Assembly: GCF_007990755.1 (NCBI RefSeq)
Contig: NZ_BJXA01000006.1
Location: 1-64,000, forward strand
Source of the DNA: Nocardia ninae NBRC 108245
Lineage (GTDB): Bacteria; Actinomycetota; Actinomycetes; Mycobacteriales; Mycobacteriaceae
DNA: 64,000 nt
Reading direction: 5' to 3'
The notes under the pieces are model-generated. The model did not search any database. It saw only the letters and a list, made by a program, of their open reading frames with translations, and was not told where the DNA came from. A program made the position numbers and the translations under genes. Shown here piece after piece: positions 3,948-64,000 of the stretch. The stretch's first letter is position 1; each line of letters starts with the position of its first letter.

Positions 3948-4508
3948 TCACCCGGTTGCCGCGGCGGCCCCCGGCTTGACCAAACCTGCTTCATAGGCGA
4001 ACACCACCGCCTGCACCCGATCGCGCAGACCGAGTTTCGACAGCACCGAGCTGACATGGGTCTTCACCGTGTGCTCGCTGACCGTCAGCGCCGCGGCGAC
4101 CTCGGCGTTCGAGAGGCCACGGGCCAGCTGGCGCAACGTGTCTCGCTCCCGCTCGGTCAGTTCGTCCAGACGGCAGGCCAATTCGGGCCGTGGACGTCCG
4201 CGCTCGGTGAGTTCGGCGATCAAGCGCCTGGTCACCGTCGGCGCCAGCAGAGCCTCGCCGGCGGCGACGACGCGCACCGCGTCGGCCAGCTCGTCGCGGC
4301 GAACATCGTCGCGCAGGAACCCGCCGGATCCGGCCCGCAGGGCATCGTAGACATATTCGTCGACATCGAACATGGTGCGCACCAACACTTTCGCTGAGGT
4401 CTCGGGTCCGACGCCGGCCACGGTGATCACCACGGTCAGTACGGCATCGACCGCGTGGGGCGGGAACCGTTCGATGACGCCCCGGGTCGCCGGGCTGGTA
4501 AGCCTCAC
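3948..4508 (-). pseudogene. deleted two-component remnant: kinase-like N-terminus joined to response-regulator C-terminal part
   Basis: The 186-codon frame ends with a complete NarL/LuxR DNA-binding domain (LTERERDTLRQLARG..., SEHTVKTHVSSVLSKLGLRDR). Before it are only the last two alpha/beta units of a receiver domain (VLVRTMFDVDEYVYDALRAG, residues ~41-60). The receiver start with the phosphoacceptor Asp is missing. Residues ~10-37 (VIERFPPHAVDAVLTVVIT) instead resemble the first membrane helix of the sensor kinases normally encoded just upstream of such regulators. An in-frame deletion joining kinase start to regulator end would explain this. It may still be expressed as a DNA-binding protein, but cannot be phosphorylated in the usual way. 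Confidence 0.6.
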
Positions 4509-17954: not shown

Positions 17955-19745
17955 TTGTCTATCTACCAGGCGTTCTTTGCGAAATCAGGCATCGTCCGGG
18001 CCGGCCTCGGGTCCGCCGTCACGGCCGCGGTCACGGTGACGCTGTCCGGTGTGGTTCCGGGCACCGCTACCGCCACTCCGGCGCAGTCGGAGGCGGCGAC
18101 CAAACTCGCGGGCAAGACCGTGTTCGTCGATCCCGGCCATCAAGGATCCGGACACGGCGAGAACGTCGTCAAGCAGGTCAGCGACGGACGCGGCGGCATG
18201 AAGGACTGCCAGACGACCGGCATGACCACGGTGCACGGCGTGCCCGAGCACACCATCAACTGGAATGTCGCGCAGCTGGTGAAGACCTCGCTGGAGCAAC
18301 TCGGCGCGCAGGTGGTGCTGAGCCGCCAGGACGACGTGGGCTGGGGCGGCTGCATCGACGACCGTGCCAGGGCCGCCAACGAATCCGGCGCCGCCGTCGC
18401 GGTGAGCATTCACGCCGACAGCGCGCCCGCCGACCAGCGCGGCTTCCATCTGATCGTGCCCGAGCTGCCCATTCCCGACCCGACGATCAACCACATCCAG
18501 TCCACTGCCGGGCTGGCCGCCTCGACCGCGATGCGCGACGCGTACGTGCAGGCCGGATTCGTGCCTGCGGCGTACGCGAGCCCGCACGGTTTGCAGTCGC
18601 GCCGGGATGTCGCCGGGCCCGCGCTCACCGCGGTACCCGATGTGTTCCTCGAGATGGGTAACGGGGCCAACGCCGAGGACGCCGCGCTGCTGGAGAGCCA
18701 GGAAGGACAGCTCAGGCACGCCGTCGCCATCACCACCGGGCTCGTGAGTTATCTGCTCGGCCCGCAAGCGGTGACGCCGAATGTGGCGGGCGAGCAGCCT
18801 GTCGCGGCACCCGTGCCGCAGCCGGCGGCGACCGAGCCTGCGGTTGGGATACCAGCACCACAGCCTGCCGCGGTCGAACCCGCACCGCAGACTGCGCCGG
18901 ACCTGCCGGCACAAGCTGTACCGCAGGCCGCGCTGGACCCGCAGGCTGAGGCGGCACCGCAGGCTGCGCTGGACCCGCAGGCTGAGGCCGCGCCGCAGGC
19001 TGCGCTGGACTCGCAGGCCCTGGCGGCGCCGCAGGTCGCGCTGGACCCGCAGGCCCAAGCTGTACCGCAGGCAGTACCGGACCCGCAGGCCCAGGCCGTA
19101 CCACCGATGCAGACGGCACCGCAGGAACTGGCGCTCCCACCGGCCGACTCACCGTCGCAGCCGTCTCCGCCAGCGATCGAACCGCAGTTGGCATCGAATC
19201 CGCCGCAGCTCCAGTCACATCCGGCGGCGACCGAGCCGCCCGCGCAATCGGCGCCGGTACCGCAGGCCGCTCCGCAACCGAACTCGCCGCAGCTCCAGCC
19301 GCATCCGGCATCGACCGAGCCGCCCGCGCAATCGGCGCCGGCACCGCAGGCCGCTCCGCAACCGAACTCGCCGCAGTGGCAACCGTCTCCGGCGTCGATT
19401 GATCCGCCCGGACAGTCCGCACCGGCACCGCAGGCGCAGACCGCACCGCAAGGTCAGTCCTCGCCGTTCACCCCGGGCCCGGGCACCCAGCAGTCGCCGA
19501 CCGCGCCGGGCACCCAGCAGTCGCCGACCACACCGGGCACCCAGCAGAACCCGAGCCTGCCGGGAACCAAACCACCAGTGGACGAGTCGACCGACATGTC
19601 CGCCGTCCGCGAGATCATGGACATGGTGCTGACCATGCTGATGCCGTTGGCGAAGGCGCTCGGCGTGGACAACAACATGGTCACCGCCGAGCTGATCAAC
19701 CTCGCCTACGCCTTGGCGGCGAAGTTCATCGCTCCCGCCAAGTAA
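17955..19745 (+). CDS. N-acetylmuramoyl-L-alanine amidase (Amidase_3) with long Pro/Gln/Ala-repeat tail
   Basis: A 596-residue exported peptidoglycan hydrolase. A TTG start with GGGAG upstream opens a signal peptide (cleavage near TATATPAQ). The zinc amidase domain spans ~50-275: VFVDPGHQGSG (first Zn His), GVPEHTINWNVAQ (Glu), VSIHADSAP (Zn His) and VFLEMGNGANAEDA (catalytic Glu). Homologous domains (mycobacterial Ami1/Rv3717 type) cleave the MurNAc-L-Ala bond at cell separation. From ~280 to ~535 the protein is almost purely Pro, Gln, Ala and Ser with tandem 14-15-residue units. The last ~50 residues return to a folded-looking helical segment (VREIMDMVLTMLMPLAKALG). The tail probably spans or binds the thick mycolate-arabinogalactan envelope. 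Confidence 0.85.
   Translation: MSIYQAFFAKSGIVRAGLGSAVTAAVTVTLSGVVPGTATATPAQSEAATKLAGKTVFVDPGHQGSGHGENVVKQVSDGRGGMKDCQTTGMTTVHGVPEHTINWNVAQLVKTSLEQLGAQVVLSRQDDVGWGGCIDDRARAANESGAAVAVSIHADSAPADQRGFHLIVPELPIPDPTINHIQSTAGLAASTAMRDAYVQAGFVPAAYASPHGLQSRRDVAGPALTAVPDVFLEMGNGANAEDAALLESQEGQLRHAVAITTGLVSYLLGPQAVTPNVAGEQPVAAPVPQPAATEPAVGIPAPQPAAVEPAPQTAPDLPAQAVPQAALDPQAEAAPQAALDPQAEAAPQAALDSQALAAPQVALDPQAQAVPQAVPDPQAQAVPPMQTAPQELALPPADSPSQPSPPAIEPQLASNPPQLQSHPAATEPPAQSAPVPQAAPQPNSPQLQPHPASTEPPAQSAPAPQAAPQPNSPQWQPSPASIDPPGQSAPAPQAQTAPQGQSSPFTPGPGTQQSPTAPGTQQSPTTPGTQQNPSLPGTKPPVDESTDMSAVREIMDMVLTMLMPLAKALGVDNNMVTAELINLAYALAAKFIAPAK
18920..19110 (+). repeat. tandem repeat encoding PQAALDPQAxA units in the amidase tail
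   Basis: About four to five imperfect 42-45-base units (each reading CCGCAGGC..GCGCTGGACC.. with small changes) lie head to tail. Related but looser Pro/Gln repeats (e.g. PQPNSPQ) continue to ~19450, and GTQQSPT units run at 19481-19550. Confidence 0.75.
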
Positions 19746-38843: not shown

Positions 38844-39110
38844 TCAGGCAGGAGGGGGCGGGCAGGGCTTGCCGTCGAGGTCGGACGGGGGCGGCAGCGG
38901 GCGGCCGTCGGGGCCGAGGGGTGGGGGCAGGGGCTTGCCGTCGGCGCCCAGCGGTGGGGGCACGCATCCGTTGTTCGACGGGGCGGCCTGCTGGTCCAGT
39001 TGTACGTGCAGACCTGGTGCGGCGGGGGTGGCGGCGGCCGATCCGGCGGCGATCAGGCCGGAGCCCATGATCGCGGCGGACGCGACGACGATGGCCGTGC
39101 GGAGTCTCAT
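38844..39110 (-). CDS. small secreted proline-rich protein
   Basis: 88 residues: signal peptide (MRLRTAIVVASAAIMGSG..., cleavage near AAATPA) and a short mature part of Pro-rich repeats with the unit PPPLGxDGKPL three times and two Cys. It resembles the secreted proteins at 441-1989 in style but not in upstream sequence. Role unknown; envelope location inferred. Confidence 0.65.
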   Translation of the reverse strand: MRLRTAIVVASAAIMGSGLIAAGSAAATPAAPGLHVQLDQQAAPSNNGCVPPPLGADGKPLPPPLGPDGRPLPPPSDLDGKPCPPPPA

Positions 39111-53221: not shown

Positions 53222-54040
53222 TCAGCGCCTACTGGCCCGGCGGTAGCCGATGGTGGCGGGGATGGCGAAGAGGAGGATGGCGCCGAGGGACCAGAGCAGG
53301 GTGAGGGTGAGGGGGCGGGCGAGGGGGCCTTCGAGGGCTAGGGCTTTCATGGCGTCTACGGCGACGGACATGGGTTGGTTGCGGACTATGGGTTGGATCC
53401 ATTGGGGGTAGGCGGCGAGGGGGACGAAGCCGGTGCTGAAGAACATCATCAGGGAGGTGAGGATGGTGATGGCTTCCACCAGGGTGGCTTTGGCGGTGAA
53501 GACGGCCACGGCAGTGACGACGGTGGCGAAGGCCAGCCCGAAAAGTACTGGGATGAGCAGGAATACGAGCGTCGCGAGGATGCCCTGGTGGAAGCGGAAG
53601 CCGAGCAGGTAGCCGACGAGGATGATGGCGAGGGTCCCTGCGAAGATGCGGCATCCCTCGGCGAGGATGCGGGAGGCGAGGCCGGATGCGCGGTGTACCG
53701 GCAGTACCCAGAACCGGGCGAGCAGACCTGCGTCCCGCTCGCGGCCGAGCAGGACACCACCGGCGACCGCGCCGGACAGCGCACCGACGAGGGTGACCAT
53801 CGGTACCGAACCGAAGAGTGCGCTCTCCCCGGTGAACTTACGGATCTGGCCGCCGATGACGGTCTCCAGCATGATCAGCAGCAGGCACGGGATGATCAGG
53901 GTTTCCAGCAGGGTGATCGGATTGCGCGTCCAGCGCAGCAGTAACCGCTGGGTCTGAATCATGGTGTGCTGCACCAAGGACGCGACCGACACCTCCGAAC
54001 CGGTGCGGGTATCTGTGGTGGGTTGAGCCAGCAGCGTCAT
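53222..54040 (-). CDS. ABC-2 type permease (DrrB/DrrC-like), second
   Basis: A 272-residue six-helix permease: LETLIIPCLLLIMLETVIGG, ALSGAVAGGVLLGRERDAGLLARFWVLPVHRASG (cytoplasmic coupling region), LGFRFHQGILATLVFLLIPVLFG and FFSTGFVPLAAYPQWIQPI. Start ATG 54040 after AGGAGGGC. Its start overlaps the stop of the first permease (TGATG). With the other permease and the ATPase it should form an exporter for the product of the NRPS. Confidence 0.85.
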   Translation of the reverse strand: MTLLAQPTTDTRTGSEVSVASLVQHTMIQTQRLLLRWTRNPITLLETLIIPCLLLIMLETVIGGQIRKFTGESALFGSVPMVTLVGALSGAVAGGVLLGRERDAGLLARFWVLPVHRASGLASRILAEGCRIFAGTLAIILVGYLLGFRFHQGILATLVFLLIPVLFGLAFATVVTAVAVFTAKATLVEAITILTSLMMFFSTGFVPLAAYPQWIQPIVRNQPMSVAVDAMKALALEGPLARPLTLTLLWSLGAILLFAIPATIGYRRASRR

Positions 54041-54858
54041 CACGCCCTCCTCGAACTCAGTCGGATGGTCAGCGGAATGCACAGGGCGAGAATGGCGATC
54101 GCCCACGCCAGCGGCGGCCCCATCAACGACCAGGTCACCTGGCCGGCGTTGCCCACCGTGTCACCGGCCAGCGCGCGCAACCCGATCGCGAATTGGGACA
54201 CCGGCTGGTTGCGCACGAAGGGCTGCACCCAGGCCGGAAACTGATGGGCCGGAGCCAATCCCGTCGACAGCATGCCGAAGATCAACGGCGGCAACACCAA
54301 CGCCTGGGTCGTCGCCTCCGGACTGCGCGACACCGTGCCGATCACGTCGGCGCCGAGCATCAGCGCGAGCCCGACGAGCATTGCGAACAGCAGGAAGCCG
54401 ATGGTGTGCACGGTGTCGAGACGGAACCGGAAGCCGATCACATGACCGCAGATAACCGCGGTGACCAGCGCGATCGCCAGCCGGAACAGATTGCCGGACA
54501 TGCGCGCGGCAACGGGCACCAGCGGCCCGACCGGCATGGACCCGAAGCGTCGATTGAGCCCCGCAACCGAGTCGGTCGCCGCCCGGAACGCGGCCGAGAT
54601 GGCCGTGAACGCGGCGGCCTGCAACACCACGATGGGCATCATGAACTGGGCATAGCTGCTGAATCCGGTGCCCGCGAAGGTCATCACCGTCTTCAGTGGA
54701 ATGTAGAAGCTGGCCGTGAAGGCCGCGGGTGCCAGGATCGAGGCGAGCACCTCACCGGTTTTCACCGACGGCACGATCAGTCGCGTCGTCAGCACCCACC
54801 ACTGCTGTGCCCGCGCCGGCGTGGCCCGGGTCTGCGTCAGCCAGGTGCCTGCGGTCAT
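54040..54858 (-). CDS. ABC-2 type permease (DrrB-like), first
   Basis: A 272-residue six-helix permease with an N-terminal amphipathic lead (RAQQWWVLTTRLIVPSVKTGEVLA) and the pair of segments ALVLPPLIFGMLSTGLAPA and FPAWVQPFVRNQPVSQFAIGLRAL. Overlaps the ATPase gene by 4 bases (ATGA) and the next permease by one base. Confidence 0.85.
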   Translation of the reverse strand: MTAGTWLTQTRATPARAQQWWVLTTRLIVPSVKTGEVLASILAPAAFTASFYIPLKTVMTFAGTGFSSYAQFMMPIVVLQAAAFTAISAAFRAATDSVAGLNRRFGSMPVGPLVPVAARMSGNLFRLAIALVTAVICGHVIGFRFRLDTVHTIGFLLFAMLVGLALMLGADVIGTVSRSPEATTQALVLPPLIFGMLSTGLAPAHQFPAWVQPFVRNQPVSQFAIGLRALAGDTVGNAGQVTWSLMGPPLAWAIAILALCIPLTIRLSSRRA

Positions 54859-55859
54859 GAGACCCGCTCCGCATCAACAGCTTTCATGTCGGCGTCGGCT
54901 CCATCAGTGGAGGCCAGATGACCGGTCAGCTGGAGGAACACATCATCGAGCGACGGCCTGCGCAGCGCGATATCGACCAGTTCGACGTCCGCGCCGTCGA
55001 GGCGGCGCAACGCTTCCGCGAGGGTCTTCGCACCGTCCGGCGCCGGGATCGCGATCCGGTCCGAGTCCGGCGTCATCGCGGCCCGAATGTCCTCCGGCAG
55101 TAGCGAACCGAGTGCATCGGCGATGACCGGCAGATCTTTGAGATCCAGCGGCACCACCTCGCAGTAACTTCCACCGGTCCTGGACTTCAGCTCGTCGGCG
55201 GTGCCCTGCGCGATCACCACACCGTGGTCGATCACGATGATCCGGTCGCTGAGCGCGTCCGCTTCCTCCAGGTACTGTGTGGTGAGCAGGGTGGTGATGC
55301 CCGCCTTCTTGAAGCTGGTCACCAGATCCCAAACCCCTTGTCTGCTACGTGGATCCAGGCCGGTGGTCGGCTCGTCCAGGAACACCACATCCGGGCGAAC
55401 AACGAGCCCGCACGCGATGTCGATGCGCCGCCGCATGCCGCCCGAGTACGTGCCGACCCGGCGGCCCGCCGCGCCCACGAGATCGAACTCGGCGAGCAGT
55501 TCGTCCGCCCTGGCCCGGGCGGCGCGCTTGCGCAAACCCATCAGCCTGCCGAACATCACCAGATTCTCGTAACCGCTGAGCATGTCGTCGAGGGCGGCGT
55601 ACTGCCCGGTCAGCATGATGGACCGGCGCACCGCCGCCGGGTCGGCGACCACGTCGTGCCCGGCGACCACCGCGCGTCCCCGATCCGGGGTGATGAGCGT
55701 CGACAGGACGTTCACCATGGTCGTCTTCCCGGCGCCGTTCGGGCCGAGGATACCGAGCACCTCGCCCGGATCGGCGACGAAATCGACGCCACGCAAAGCT
55801 TTTACGGCGCCGAAGGACTTCTCGATTCCTTCGACGACGACTCCTTGTTCGGGGTTCAT
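54855..55859 (-). CDS. DrrA-type ABC transporter ATPase
   Basis: A 334-residue ATPase: Walker [15 protein letters not shown] (~38-51), Q-loop [14 protein letters not shown], signature [15 protein letters not shown], Walker [14 protein letters not shown], and the DrrA-type C-terminal extension (~225-325; [15 protein letters not shown]). Typically exports glycolipids, peptides or antibiotics. Its start overlaps the NRPS stop by 4 bases, so it is translated with the NRPS. Confidence 0.93.
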
Positions 55860-58800
55860 CCTCGGCCTCCCAGATGTTCGTCGAGCACGCGCGCGATGAT
55901 CGCCAGCACGTGCGGTGCGGTCAGTTCGTCGTGGGTGACCTCGACGTCGTGGTTGCTGATCTCACCGGTCACGTACGGCCGCCAGCCGTCCGGACCGAAG
56001 ATGTCGGAGGTATCGACGGTCGCGCTGAAATACACGATGTCGCCGTCGTATACCGGTCGTCGATAGCCGGTGCGGGTCCGCGCCGACGCGTTGTAGGAGG
56101 CGGCCATCCGCTCGATGGTGTCCGCGTCGATGAGCGAAACACCGCCCAGCCGTTCCCGAATCAGGTCGGCGGCCTCCTGTGCGGTCGCCTCGGCGGGAAC
56201 GTCGTCGATGCCGAAGACCGAGCCGAAGGAGTTGACGAACGCGCCGGCGCTGAGCCGTTCGATGCTGTCGCCGTCGATATCGGCGGTGTCGGCGTCCAGC
56301 AGGGCGACAACGCCGACGGTCTCGCCCGCCTGTTGCAGCTCGGCCGCGATGGCGTGCGCGATGAGTCCGCCGAACGACCAGCCGAGCAGGTGGTACGGGC
56401 CGCTCGGTTGGATGGCGCGGATCTCGCGCACGTACCGGTCGGCGAACTCCTCGATCGAGCGGGCCGGTGGTTCGTGGCCGCCGAGATCGGGCGCTTGCAG
56501 ACCGTAGATCGGCCTGCCCGGCCGCAGCGCGTCCGCCAATCCCAAATAGGTCCAAGACATCCCGGAGGACGGGTGGATGCAGAACAATGCGGGTTCGGCG
56601 CCGTCGGGGCGGATCGGCAGCACCACGTCCAGACCGAGCCCGGTGGGTGCCGCCGTGGTGATCTGTGCCGCGGCTTGCGCGGCGATGGCGGCGGTCTCGT
56701 CGTCCGCCGCGGTGCGTGCGGCGGGGGATTGCGCGAATTCGGCGGCGGCACGCAGCGTCTCGACCCACAAATCGGCCAACTCGGCGACCTCGTCCTGCGA
56801 CAAGAGCTCTGCGGGGAAGCCGAAGCTCGCCTGCAACCGGTCACCGACCACCACGGCGTTCACGTCGATCGCCGATTGCAGTGGCACAGTGGGGTGTTCG
56901 GTGGCGTGTAGGTCGCCGAGTTCGTCGGTGGGCAGCCAGCCGAGTCCTTCGAGCCCGGCGGGGATGTCACCGGTCGAGTACCGGCCGAGGTAGTTGAAGC
57001 TGACCTGGCCCGGCAGTCCAGCCGGAAGTTGTTCGGCCGTAGCCGGATTAAGGTAGCGCAACAGTCCGAAGCCGATGCCCTTGTCCGGCACCGCCAGCAG
57101 CTGATGCTTCACTGCGCGGATAGCCGTGCCCATCGCCGCACCACCGGCGAGCACGTCGTCGAGGTCGATGCCATCCAGGCTCAGCCGGACGGGATAGATG
57201 CTGGTGAACCAGCCGATCGTGCGGGACAGATCGGCACCGGGGATCACTTCCTCTTGCCTGCCATGTCCTTCGAGCCGAATCAGTGCCTCGGCGGTTCCGG
57301 CGGCACGAGACCGCCAGCGCACCAGCGCAATCGCCAACGTGGCGAGCAGCCCGTCGTTCACCCCGCCCTGGAACAACCCGGGCAATGTGGTGAGCAGCGC
57401 GTTGGTGACCTGCGGGGGGACCTCGCGGTCGAGCATGCGCAACGTGTGCGCCTGGTCGACGGCGGGGTCCAGCGGGCGGGAACCGATCAGCGGATCGGCG
57501 CCGGTGATGACGTCCTGCCAGTAGCCGAGCTCGGAAACCCGCTTGTCCGTGTGCGCCTCGTCGACCAGGGCATGCGCCCACCGCCGCATCGACGTACCGG
57601 TCTCGGCGAGCACCGGGGTGTTGCCGACCGACACCTGCGCCCACGCGGCGGCCAAGTCCGGCACCAGGATGCGCCAGGAGACACCGTCGATGACGAGATG
57701 GTGTGCCACGACGATCAAACGTCCGGCGCGCGTGCGGGTTCCGCCATCGCCCACCGGGTCGAGCCAAATGAACTGGAGCACAACACCGTCGGCCGTATCG
57801 AGCCGGTTCATCGCGGCATCCAGCTCGGTCACCGCGTATTCGCGCAGCTCGACCGAGTCGGCGGCGGCGTCGAACTCGATGCGGTGCACGAGCGCGTCCA
57901 CCTCGACCGATCCGACTTCGCCGACCCGCAGGCACGGCGCACCGTGCTCGTCCGGGGAAAGCCGGGCACGCAGCATGTCGTGCCGGTCGACCACCGCCGC
58001 CAGCGTGGCGACGATCTGCGCTCGATCGATGCCGACGGGCAGCTCCAGCACCGCCGTCTGTGCGAAGCGGCGGTAGTCGCCGCCCCGTTCGAGCATGTAG
58101 CGCACGATCGGCGTCAACGGCAGCTCGCCCACACCGCCACCGGGCAGCTCGTCCAGTATGACTACCGCGCCCGCGGCGTCGGCCGCCGCGGCCAGTGCGG
58201 CCACAGTCCGGTGCTCGAACACCTGCAGCGGTGTGCAGTGCACGCCGTGTTGCTTTGCGCGGGAGACGAGTTGGATGGCGAGGATGCTGTCGCCGCCGAG
58301 CGCGAAGAACGAGTCGTCGGCGCCGACCTTGTCGAGCCCGAGCAGCTCGGCGAAGATCCCGGACAAGGTCTCCTCGGTCGGCGTGGACGGCGCACGGTAC
58401 TCGGTGCGATCGGCCGTGAACTCCGGTGCGGGCAGCGCCTTTCGGTCGAGCTTGCCGACCGCGGTAAGCGGGATCGCATCCAGCACAACAAAGGCGGACG
58501 GAACCATGTAGGCGGGCAGCGTGTCGGCGGCGACGGCCCGGACCTGCGCGAGATCGAGCTCGACGCCCGGCGTATGCACCAGATACGCAGCCAGCGCGGT
58601 CGCACCGGTCGGGCCGGGGACACCGAGCGTCACCGCGAAATCGACACCGTCGACCCGGCCGAGCACCGCGTCGATCTCGCCGAGTTCGATGCGTTGACCA
58701 CGCACCTTGACCTGGAAGTCGGTGCGGCCGAGGTACTCCAACATCAAGCCCGAGGTGGTCCGCGTCCAGCGGACCAGGTCGCCGGTACGGTACATCCGCT

Positions 58801-61800
58801 CGCCCGCTTCGCCGAACGGATCGGCGATGAAGCGGCCCGCCGTCAAACCGGGTCGAGCGTGGTAACCGCGGGCCAAGGCGGGTCCGGCCAGGTACAGCTC
58901 ACCCGCGACGCCGACCGGCACCGGACGCAGCCGATCGTCGAGGACCAGGGTGGCGGCCCCGCGCACCGGCGTGCCGATGGACACCGGCTCGCCGACTACC
59001 AGTGGCGCGGAACCCGTTGCCCAGATGGTGAATTCGGTCGGCCCGTACAGGTTGACCATGGTGCGATCGGCGGCCCAACGCTCGACCAGTTCGGTGCCGA
59101 CCGCCTCACCCGCCACCGCGAGCACCCGCACACTCGATACCTCGCCGGGATCGAGGGTGGCCAGCGCCGACGGTGTGATCACCATGTGGGTGACCTGCTC
59201 TGCCGCAATCAGTTCGGCGAGCGCGCTGCCACCGAATACTTCTGGTGGCGCGACCACCGAGGCGCCGCCGGAGCCGAAGGCCATGAGCGCCTCGAAGACC
59301 GACGCGTCGAAACTCGGTGAAGCCACCTGCAATACCCGGGAGTGCTCATCGAGTCCGAGCGACTCACGTTGCGCGACCATCAAGTCGGTGAGGCCGCGAT
59401 GCGACACCGAGACGCCCTTCGGTGTCCCCGTCGAACCGGAGGTGTAGATCATCCACGCCGGGTTGTCCGGCCGGATCGGGCTCGGCAGATCTCCGTCGTC
59501 CAGCGGACTCGCACTCGCCTGGCACCAGCGGCCGACCAGGTCCACATCGTCCAGCACCAGCCAGTGCGTGCTGTCCGGCAGCAGCGGCCGGTAGGCGGCC
59601 ACCGTGAGACCCACGCGGGCCTGGGAATCGGTGAGCATGTGGTCGATGCGCTCCACCGGATGCTTCGGGTCGACCGGCAGGAAGGCCGCGCCGACCTTCG
59701 CCGCCGCCCACATGCCGGTCAGCAGTTCGGCCGAACGGGGAAGGCCGAGGGCGACTACGGATTCCGCGCCCACGTCGGCTTCCAGCAGCAGGCGGGCCAG
59801 TCGGTTGGTGTGTGCGTCGAGTTCCCGATAGGTCGTGGTGTGTCCGGCGGCGACCACGGCGGGCCGGTCCAGGTGCCGGTCCATTGTCCGTGCGAGTAGC
59901 TCGGGAAGCGTTGCCGTCCCGGCACTCTCGGGTCCGCGCACCGGCACCAGGGTGGCGCGTTCGGTATCGTCGAGGATGTCGATATCGGCGAGCCTTGTGT
60001 CCGGCTCGGCCAGCACGGTCGCGAGTACGCGCCGCCATCGAGTGGCGAACGCCGCTACCGTTGCCGCGTCGAACAGGTCCGTTGCGTAGGTCAGCACCCC
60101 GGACAGTCCGGCCGGACCCGTCTCGCCGAAGCGCTCGCGCAGATCGAGGGTCAGATCGAATTGTGAAGTGCGCCGGTCGAAGTCCTCCACCTCGAACCGC
60201 AGTCCTGGCAGCTCCAGCACCGGCTCGACGAAGTTCTGCAACGTCAGCGACACCTGGAACAAGGGATGATGCGCCGTCGAGCGGGTCGGATTCAACACCT
60301 GCACAAGGCGCTCGAACGGCACGTCGGCATTCGCGAACGCATCCAGATCCACGGCGCGCACCGCGGTCAGGAAGTCGCCGAAGCCGGCGCCCGGGTCGAC
60401 CGGTGTGCGCAGCGCCAGGGTATTGACGAACATCCCGACCAACTCGTCCAGCGCTTGCTCCCCGCGCCCGGCGACCGGCGTGCCGATCACCACATCGTCG
60501 GTACCGCCGAGCCGCGCCAGCAGCACCGCGAGCGCCGCGTGCACGACCATGAACAGGCTGACATTGTGCGCCGCCGCGAATTCGACCAGGGTGCGGTGCA
60601 ATTCGTCGTCGATGGTGAACTCGACGTCGGCACTACGCATGGTCTGCACCGCAGGTCGCGGCCGATCGCTGGGCAACTCCAGCACATCCGGCGCCCCGGT
60701 AAGCGTGTCGTTCCAGAACCGCAGCTGCCGCGCCGCCATCGAGTCCGGATCCGACTCACTACCGAGCAGTTCGCGATGCCACAGCGCGAAATCGGCGTAC
60801 TGCACGCCCATCGGAACCCTGGTCGTCTCCGCGCCACTGACCCGCTCCGAATACGCGGCGACCAGATCGGCCGCCAGCGGTGCCATGGACGCGCCATCCG
60901 CGCTGATGTGGTGCACCACCAGGACGACGATGTGCACGGCAGGAGTATTGGTACCGGGGGAGTGGTCGGTTGCCACCGGAGCTGTGGCCATCGAGTGGCC
61001 CGACGATACCGGTGGGGTGCCCGACGATGGGCTGGAGGTCACCGGTGGAACGCCCGCTGATGGGCTGGAAGTGACTGGTGCGCCGCCTGCGGAGGGGCTG
61101 GACGCCACGGCTGGGCCGCCTGCCGATGGGCTGGGCGTGATGGGTGGAACGCCTGCGGATGGGCCGGACGGCACGGGTGAGCCGCCCGCCGACGGGCTGG
61201 ACGTCACCGGTGCGGCGCCTGCCGAGGGACCGGGCGTGACCGGAGTGCCGTCTGCGGAAGGACTTGACGCCATCGGTGCGGAACCCGCGAACGTGCTGGC
61301 CGAGGCCGGGGCGGAATTTGCGCTGTCTGCGTCCGCCGTGACGATCCGGAACAACCCGACGCGCAGTGGCGGCTCCTTGGCGATGTCGAATCCATTGCCT
61401 GCCAATGCGTTGATTCGCGCGCGCAGCGGCGCGCCGTCTTCGCTATCGACCAATGTCATTGCAGGAGCGGCCATCTCGGTGCTCATCACTACTTGTCGGG
61501 GGCCATCCGAGTCGGCCGGGTAGATCGTGCGCAGGCTTTCGTGCCGGTCGACGACGTCGGCGAGGGCCGACCGCATGGCGTCCACGTCGAGCATGCCGGT
61601 CAGCCGCAGCGCGACCGCGATGTTGTACGCCGACGAGGTGGGGTCGAGCCGGTTGAGCACCCACATCCGCTGCTGCGCGGGGGACAATGGGATGCGGTCC
61701 GGCCGGATCCGCGGTGCGAGCGCGAAGCGGCCGGGCTTGCCGTCGGTCGCCGGGACCACGCGCCCGGACAGTTGGGCGACGGTGGGCGCGTCGAACAGGT

Positions 61801-64000
61801 CACGCAGTGCGATCGTCGAACCCAGCGCCGAATTGACCCGGGCGACAACTTTGGTCGCGCTGAGCGAGTTGCCGCCGAGCTCGAAGAACGATTGGTCGAC
61901 ACCGACCCGCTCGCGGCCGAGCACGTCACCGAACACCTCGGCCACCGCCTGCTCGACCGGTGTGCGCGGCGCGAGGTAGGGCCGGTTGGTGTCCGAGAAG
62001 TCGGGCACGGGAAGGGCTTTGCGGTCCAGCTTGCCGACCGGCGTCAACGGAATCGAGTCCAGCACGACGAGATAGCCGGGCACCATATACCCGGGCAGCT
62101 CGGCGGCCACCTGGACGCGCAATCGCTCGGTATCCAGTTCGACCCCCTCGGCGGGCAGCACATACGACACCAGCACGGTCGCGCCCGCCGGCCCGGTCCG
62201 CCCGATCGTCACCGCATACTCGACCTGCTCGTCACGCGAGAGCACCGCGTCGATCTCACCGAGCTCGATGCGCAGACCGCGAATCTTGACCTGGAAGTCG
62301 CTGCGCCCCAGGTACTCCAGCTCGTAACCGCCATCGCGGCCGACCACCCAGCTCACCATGTCGCCGGTCCGGTACATCCGCTCGCCCGGCTCGCCGAACG
62401 GATCGGCGACGAAGCGACTCGCGGTCATCTCGAACCGGTTGAAGTAACCGCGGGCAAGGGCAGGTCCGGCCAAGTAGAGCTCGCCGGCGACCCCCACGGG
62501 CACCGGCCGCAGCCAGGTGTCCAGCACCATGTTCGCCGCGCCGCGGATCGGACCGCCGATGGTGATCGGCTCGCCCGCAACGAGTTCCGCGGGACCGGTG
62601 GCCCAGATGCTGAACTCCGTCGGACCGTAAAGGTTCACCATCCGCCGCCCGGCGGACCAGCGCTCGATCAGCTCGGGCGTGGCCGCCTCTCCGGCGACCG
62701 AGAGCACCCGCAGGTGGTCGAGATCGGTCGGGTCCATGGTGGCCAGCGCGGACGGCGTGATCACCGCGTGGGTGACCCGCTCGATACGCAGCAGTTGTTC
62801 GAGTTCGCTACCGCCGTAGACATCCGGCGGGGATACGACCAACCTGGCACCCGAGCCATGCGCGGTCAGCAGTTCGAACACCGAAGCATCGAAGCTCGGC
62901 GACGCCACCTGCAACGCACTCGCCGTCGGATCCAACGCGAGCGAGTCCCGTTGGGTGGCGACCAGATTCGCGATACCCCGATGGCTGAGCAGCACGGCTT
63001 TGGGCTTGCCGGTGGAACCGGAGGTATAGATCAGGTAGGCGGTCTGATCGACATCGATCGGGCCGCCGCGCTCCTCGTCGGTGATCGGATCGGCAGACAC
63101 CGTCATCACCCGGCGGATGGTGTTGAGGTCGTCGAGCAGCAGCCAGTCGATGCTGCCCGGCAGCGTCTCACCGGTCGCGGTGACCGTCACGCCGATGGGC
63201 GCCTTCGAGTCGGTGAGCATGTGCTCGATCCGCTCGACCGGATAGTGCGGGTCCAGTGGCGCGAACGCCGCGCCCGACTTGGCCAGCGCCCACACCGCGA
63301 CCACCGACTCCAGCGAGCGGGTGAGCGCGAGCACGACGAACACCTCCCGCCCGACGCCCCGGCTCAGCAGCAGCCGCGCGAACCGGTTCGACCAGGCGTC
63401 GAGCTCGCCATAGGACATGGTGAGCTCGCCCGCGCTGACCGCGATGGCATCGCCGTCGATGGCCGCACCGGCGGCGAGGATGTCGGGCAGCGTGCGCACG
63501 GGCAGCGACTCCGGCCCCCGCACCGGCAGCAGCGCGGCACGTTCGGCGTCGTCGCAGTACTGCACCTGCGAGACCAAGGCGCGCGGATTGTCGGCGAGTT
63601 GGGTGAGCAACCGGACGAAGCGATCCAGCAGCGGTCGCGCGTCCGCGGCATCGAGCTGATCGGCCATGAATTTCAGGCTGACGCGCAAGGTGTCGCGACC
63701 GTCCGGGCCGCGCAGCGGAATGACCATGAGGTTCAACGGGTATGGCGTCGCGTCGGTGCCTTCGACGTCGAGCACCCGCATGCCCGCGATGTCCAGCGCC
63801 TGCGACAGCGCCTCCCGGTCGATCGGGTAGGACTCGAAAACGGTGAGGGTGTCGAACAATTCGGCGAGGCCGACGGCCTGATGGATGGCGGCCAGTCCGA
63901 CATGCTGATGATCCATCAGCCGCGCCTGCTCGGCTTGCAGGCGGGCGAGCAGGTCGACCACCTTCTCCGCCGGATCCAGGCGCACCCGCACCGGCAAAGT
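55856..64000 (-). CDS. nonribosomal peptide synthetase, C-terminal modules (5' part outside window)
   Basis: At least 2713 residues, open to the window edge. Order: end of a condensation domain (~1-140); A1 (~160-660; [33 protein letters not shown]); carrier protein 1 ([13 protein letters not shown], ~710); condensation domain 2 (~760-1330, HHISADG at ~1025); A2 (~1350-1850; [24 protein letters not shown]); carrier protein 2 ([13 protein letters not shown], ~1905); epimerisation domain (~1970-2400; [13 protein letters not shown]); thioesterase (~2450-2713; [13 protein letters not shown]). So it finishes and releases a peptide whose last residue is likely D-configured. The pocket residues read nearly identically for A1 and A2. 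Condensation domain 2 carries a large Pro/Ser/Ala insert just before its active-site motif. Confidence 0.95.
60940..61310 (-). repeat. 33-bp tandem repeats inside NRPS condensation domain 2
   Basis: About 10 imperfect 33-base units encoding 11-residue PSAGxxPVTSS-type units, lying between [11 protein letters not shown] and [15 protein letters not shown] of the condensation domain. Unit edges vary by substitution but keep frame. Outside it the domain sequence is ordinary. Confidence 0.85.

Follow-up and report, generated by a model that had tools for sequence, protein, structure and literature searches.

Minisatellites in coding DNA and disordered, low-complexity insertions in the surface loops of proteins form a known general class. 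The insert described here, in condensation (C) domain 3 of a non-ribosomal peptide synthetase (NRPS) of Nocardia ninae, resembles coding minisatellites in its in-frame tandem units, in the loss of such units and in its bias towards Ser, Pro and Ala, and differs from them in recurring, genus-wide, at a single turn within a catalytic domain that belongs to one family of enzymes. A search of the open literature, mostly at title level, returned no title on inserts of this sort in C domains of NRPSs. OaaC is described as a stand-alone C domain with a 17-residue insertion relative to a canonical C domain (PMC13142362); compared with the insert in C domain 3, that of OaaC is short, holds a helix (Gln214-His224) and lies over the surface that would be turned towards the adenylation domain.

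As to the synthetase itself, Komaki et al. (2014) report a three-module and a four-module NRPS common to their seven strains, with products that were not predicted. Mannle et al. (2020; PMC7413640) describe the Nocardia gene cluster family GCF 5, present in 75 of 101 genomes, as encoding a trimodular NRPS that carries epimerisation (E) domains in modules 1 and 3 and the peptide of which was not predictable. The N. ninae enzyme is likewise trimodular with E domains in its first and terminal modules, and at least 99 of 150 genomes contain an orthologue; the match with GCF 5 is one of architecture and frequency, and inserts are not mentioned in the section consulted.

The window, i.e., the 64-kb stretch of N. 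ninae DNA that was analysed, contains the C-terminal part of this NRPS (Table 1). Pfam matches and motif positions gave the domain order C-A-T-E-C-A-T-C-A-T-E-TE for the whole enzyme; the C domain with the repeats, which a preliminary description had numbered 2, is indeed the second in the window but the third of the NRPS. The EGHGR motif of the terminal epimerisation domain is taken by us as the mark of an E domain. The genes of a DrrABC-type exporter come after the NRPS gene, and upstream of it, outside the window, are found a gene for a Peripla_BP_2 periplasmic-binding protein (presumably FecB-like), a glyoxalase-like gene, COX1 and a gene for a HAD phosphatase with ACT domains, which we take to be SerB-like.

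Table 1. Features of the NRPS gene and the genes after it, in positions of the window.
Feature	Position	Strand	Remark
NRPS, last 2714 residues of an open frame of 4562 residues	55856..64000	-	gene runs past window end
C domain 3, N-terminal half	61343..61696	-	PF00668 positions 4-126
Strand VGLFRIV, directly before insert	61340..61360	-	
Ser/Pro/Ala/Gly/Thr-rich insert, 135 residues	60935..61339	-	
33-bp repeat core, 8.2 copies	61008..61278	-	
Catalytic motif HHISADG	60893..60913	-	
C domain 3, C-terminal half	59948..60934	-	PF00668 positions 131-455
Module 3 adenylation domain	58859..59893	-	
Terminal epimerisation domain	56714..58126	-	PF00668 match; EGHGR motif
Thioesterase domain	55895..56590	-	
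DrrA-type ABC exporter ATPase	54855..55859	-	TIGR01188, above cut-off
DrrB-family permease	54040..54858	-	TIGR00025, just below cut-off
DrrB/DrrC-family permease	53222..54106	-	TIGR00025 above cut-off; drrC model just below

The repeats had been placed beside the HHxxxDG motif between two strands, and this is where they lie: the insert follows the GLFRIV strand, precedes the HHISADG strand, ends seven residues before the first catalytic His and splits the Pfam Condensation match to C domain 3 in two. The 33-bp array within the domain is real, but at 135 in-frame residues the insert is longer than the roughly 120 first given. Tandem Repeats Finder reported 72% matches between the copies, the exact number of which is provisional, being that of a draft assembly of 204 contigs. 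Compared with itself at a lag of 33, the insert has an identity of 0.64, which none of 2000 codon shuffles attains, the average at lags other than multiples of 33 being 0.31; no other part of the window has as strong a 33-base periodicity in windows of 400 bases. The core of the array consists of 8-9 units of 11 residues, and the ends of the insert are non-repetitive. As in a coding minisatellite, the head-to-tail copies go beyond chance, the period is a multiple of three, and copy number differs by one unit between sister genomes.

Other tandem repeats occur in the window. Two coding arrays (18880-19102 with 36/72-bp units and 19201-19435 with 84-bp units) lie in a plus-strand protein at 17955-19745 with an Amidase_3 (N-acetylmuramoyl-L-alanine amidase) domain, GC-rich repeats are found at 534-756 (57/12-bp units) and 1310-1549 (24/6-bp units), where three overlapping frames were scanned without a Pfam match, and a further repeat with a 33-bp period is present in 3.4 copies at 38852-38962.

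The 135 residues include 31 Ser, 27 Pro, 25 Ala, 16 Gly, 13 Thr and 11 Val, and lack Lys, Arg, Glu, Gln, Leu, Cys, Trp and Tyr altogether, a composition of the disorder type. Pfam recognised no domain or intein in the insert, the six families that it matched in the protein all being NRPS or hydrolase families. C domain 3 is otherwise like an elongation-type NRPS C domain (PF00668), with matches to both halves, an intact HHISADG motif, a carrier domain before it and an adenylation domain after it; it differs in having 135 residues at a turn that is 3 residues long in most measured relatives (47 of the 69 C/E domains measured in the N. ninae genome, which has 88 PF00668 matches, some of them pieces). 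Alignments to two solved C domains put the site between two aligned stretches, with 2 residues left unaligned in 5u89 and 8 in 7kvw. Judged from these alignments, the surface loop that had been proposed is probable; the insert is presumably intrinsically disordered and solvent-exposed at the tip of a beta-hairpin.

The loop was then followed through the genus. Among 80 loci, 33 were taken as orthologues, with 68-97% identity in the C-terminal half, and the C3 loop, measurable in all of them, had 20 or more residues in 23; of the other C/E domains on the same loci, 1 of 216 reached that length. This sole non-target case is a different C domain, in Rhodococcus sp. RD6.2 (L107), whose loop at this turn has 26 residues. 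Sixteen of 30 seed loci were kept (11 were dropped for stops in the assumed frame and 3 were misframed). A control C domain of a large NRPS (own C99), measurable at 13 of 30 loci, had loops of 9-24 residues. A search of 150 Nocardia genomes gave 104 orthologues from 99 genomes, at 59% identity and up, with rows at 58% or below counted as paralogues; their C3 loops range from 2 to 164 residues and have at least 20 in 50 of the 104. Left out of this set was a contig-cut orthologue (G051, 74% identity); L037, a locus of equal frame length, has a loop of 4. Two paralogues (L249 and L250, 52% identity) were excluded from all counts. The longest turn lies outside the 104, in N. inohanensis (L061), where the loop has 219 residues.

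The draft state of the N. ninae genome could suggest that the array is an artefact of assembly or sequencing, but inserts are found at the same place in many independent assemblies, several of them single-contig, which makes such an error extremely improbable. By eye, the inserts are in many cases mutually unlike (e.g., L145, L184, L201, L232 and L234). A residue period was detected at p < 0.05, uncorrected, in 22 of the 44 inserts tested, and the best period was 11 in 15 of these 22, the sequences being related and not independent.

On a FastTree tree calculated with the loop left out, the label of long or short loop changes 17 times, 15 of these changes being forced by well-supported (starred) branches; from such counts gains and losses cannot be told apart, and FastTree supports are optimistic. 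Closer comparisons bore out the suggestion that the repeat number could vary. A sister genome with a 97% identical C-half (L146) lacks one exact 11-residue unit and 3 further residues. A genome of the N. brasiliensis group (L177) lacks 147 bases (49 codons) that are found in L176 and L180, and 144 of which are found in L178; the ends of this deletion are GCGGCG on the left and, on the right, GCGGCG in L176 or GCAGCG in L178 and L180. The change in loop length is most simply explained by slippage or by deletion at microhomologies, and slippage would then be its driver.

An insert at so unusual a place, between two core strands and next to the catalytic motif, might be expected to damage the domain, which would then be decaying or less active, and a lowered activity had been among the consequences first considered. 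The orthologues speak against this. No stops occur inside any of the listed matches, and both His of the motif, reported intact in N. ninae, are kept in 103 of the 104. In independent sister pairs, the median pN/pS of the C-half was 0.156 for 15 pairs with long loops and 0.157 for 8 pairs with short loops (p = 0.87), one mixed pair (0.12) being excluded from the comparison. The equality of selection with and without a long loop makes lowered activity improbable as far as coding sequences can tell, and damage to the domain is a very unlikely account of the insert. The single orthologue of the 104 without both His (L204, one of two copies in genome G118) has Gln for the first of them (QHISADG) and a loop of 3 residues.

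Selection was also followed in the inserts themselves. In 16 chosen pairs their pN/pS ranged from 0.06 to 0.83, compared with 0.05 to 0.27 in the C-half, 14 of the pairs lying below 0.6 and none reaching 1; between repeat units it was 0.42 in frame versus 0.95 and 3.2 in the shifted frames. Ser, Ala, Thr, Pro and Gly together make up 51-87% (median 70%) of each of the 50 long inserts, whose Arg content has a median of 0.8% and reaches 10-12% in four (L184, L185, L190 and L234). The coding frame of 18 chosen inserts has 5% Arg, 1% Leu and no stops, whereas Arg amounts to 24 and 26% in the other forward frames and to 24, 5 and 26% in the antisense frames, with 4-5% Leu and stops in all five non-coding frames. 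Because of this frame composition and of the in-frame pN/pS of inserts and repeat units, it seems to be the encoded protein, rather than the DNA, that is constrained.

This constraint, strongest in the coding frame, bears on the idea that the array acts at the level of DNA or RNA, as a regulatory repeat, a structured RNA, an antisense gene or a dispersed repeat, for which the array of direct 33-bp repeats and the long antisense open frames could be taken to speak. The searches were negative: no inverted repeats were found, there was no Rfam match at the gathering score in 60000-62500, RNA folding was no better than that of shuffles (z 0.15), three antisense frames had no Pfam match, and the insert DNA occurred at a single place in its own genome in a search at E 0.001. 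An element of this kind is accordingly hardly to be expected.

Inserts were also sought in the rest of the enzyme, in a whole-gene alignment counted over 46 distinct orthologue sequences, with inserts defined as 15 residues or more. The C3 turn has an insert in 29 of the 46, and the homologous turn of E1 (own residue 1211) in 6; inserts also occur in E1 near residue 1152 (5), in C2 near 1744 (5) and in E2 near 4081 (3), with single cases at the E2 equivalents (3866 and 3931) and at one equivalent loop in each A domain (948, 2467 and 3659), and a few others. The events are fewer than these counts, since 4 of the E1 and 4 of the C2 cases come from one close group (L282-L285). The recurrence at equivalent turns argues for a tolerance of the fold. 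Very long low-complexity inserts are found in N. amikacinitolerans (L060, which is also L282, from G012): 311 residues in E1, at the turn that corresponds to that of C3, and 252 residues of PGVAAAE-type repeats in C2. By itself, tolerance does not account for the proneness of this enzyme to inserts, as a control four-module NRPS of similar length from the same genus has far fewer of them. With 21 sequences of each enzyme compared, the control has 8 inserts (243 residues), spread over 7 sequences, and the target NRPS 37 (2643 residues), spread over 19; the ratio is probably too high because the choice of the 20 target genomes partly favoured long frames.

The concentration of inserts in one NRPS family rather than in the control speaks for the hypothesis that the loop is a functional disordered element, such as a spacer, a binding site or an element of solubility or condensates, kept by selection though its sequence may drift. 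The pN/pS below 1 in all chosen pairs would fit this, as would a loop that stays at 45-52 residues throughout a clade of 17 (L149-L153, L155-L159, L163, L164 and L166-L170). Against it stand the 54 of 104 orthologues with fewer than 20 residues at the turn, the clean natural deletion in L177, the unlike sequences of different clades (by eye) and the equal selection on domains with and without a long loop, and a function of this sort is therefore judged unlikely, while still deserving consideration.

The turn has repeatedly grown and shrunk across the genus without visible damage to the domain, which points to an insertion-tolerant site rather than a defect. The insert is thus probably a surface loop tolerant of insertions, which lengthens and shortens through in-frame slippage or microhomology, within limits of composition set at the protein level. 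The array would have arisen where a turn in C domain 3 of an NRPS widespread in Nocardia, probably exposed to solvent, expanded in frame: the GC-rich coding DNA at the turn would grow by tandem duplication and the loop would shrink by loss of units or by microhomology deletion, with selection purging frameshifts and hydrophobic, aromatic or very Arg-rich sequences. The outcome would be a bland, presumably disordered bristle with no essential function that leaves catalysis undisturbed. Three kinds of observation do not sit easily with this explanation: the low pN/pS of the inserts and the constant loop length of the clade of 17 hint at some positive constraint, the control NRPS has far fewer inserts, and, as to composition, one antisense frame is also low in Arg and a few inserts are rich in it.

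The phenomenon is a striking variant of the known low-complexity expansion in a tolerant surface loop. A bolder and rather doubtful proposal is that of a "bristled" megasynthase, in which selection favours long disordered loops at the equivalent turns of C3, E1, E2 and the A domains; if true, the loops would serve the assembly line as spacers or as surfaces for interaction, and one sequence could stand in for another as long as the kind of loop was kept. For annotation, the insert is a warning that profile searches cut such a C domain in two, and for work on assembly lines the turn is a candidate for a tolerant site at which to place tags or tethers. For the biology of the family, it means that a turn in a catalytic domain of an NRPS has many times come to hold between 2 and more than 200 residues, under unchanged selection on the domain, and Nocardia thereby offers a set of natural variants in which to study under what conditions low-complexity loops of enzymes are neutral or put to use.
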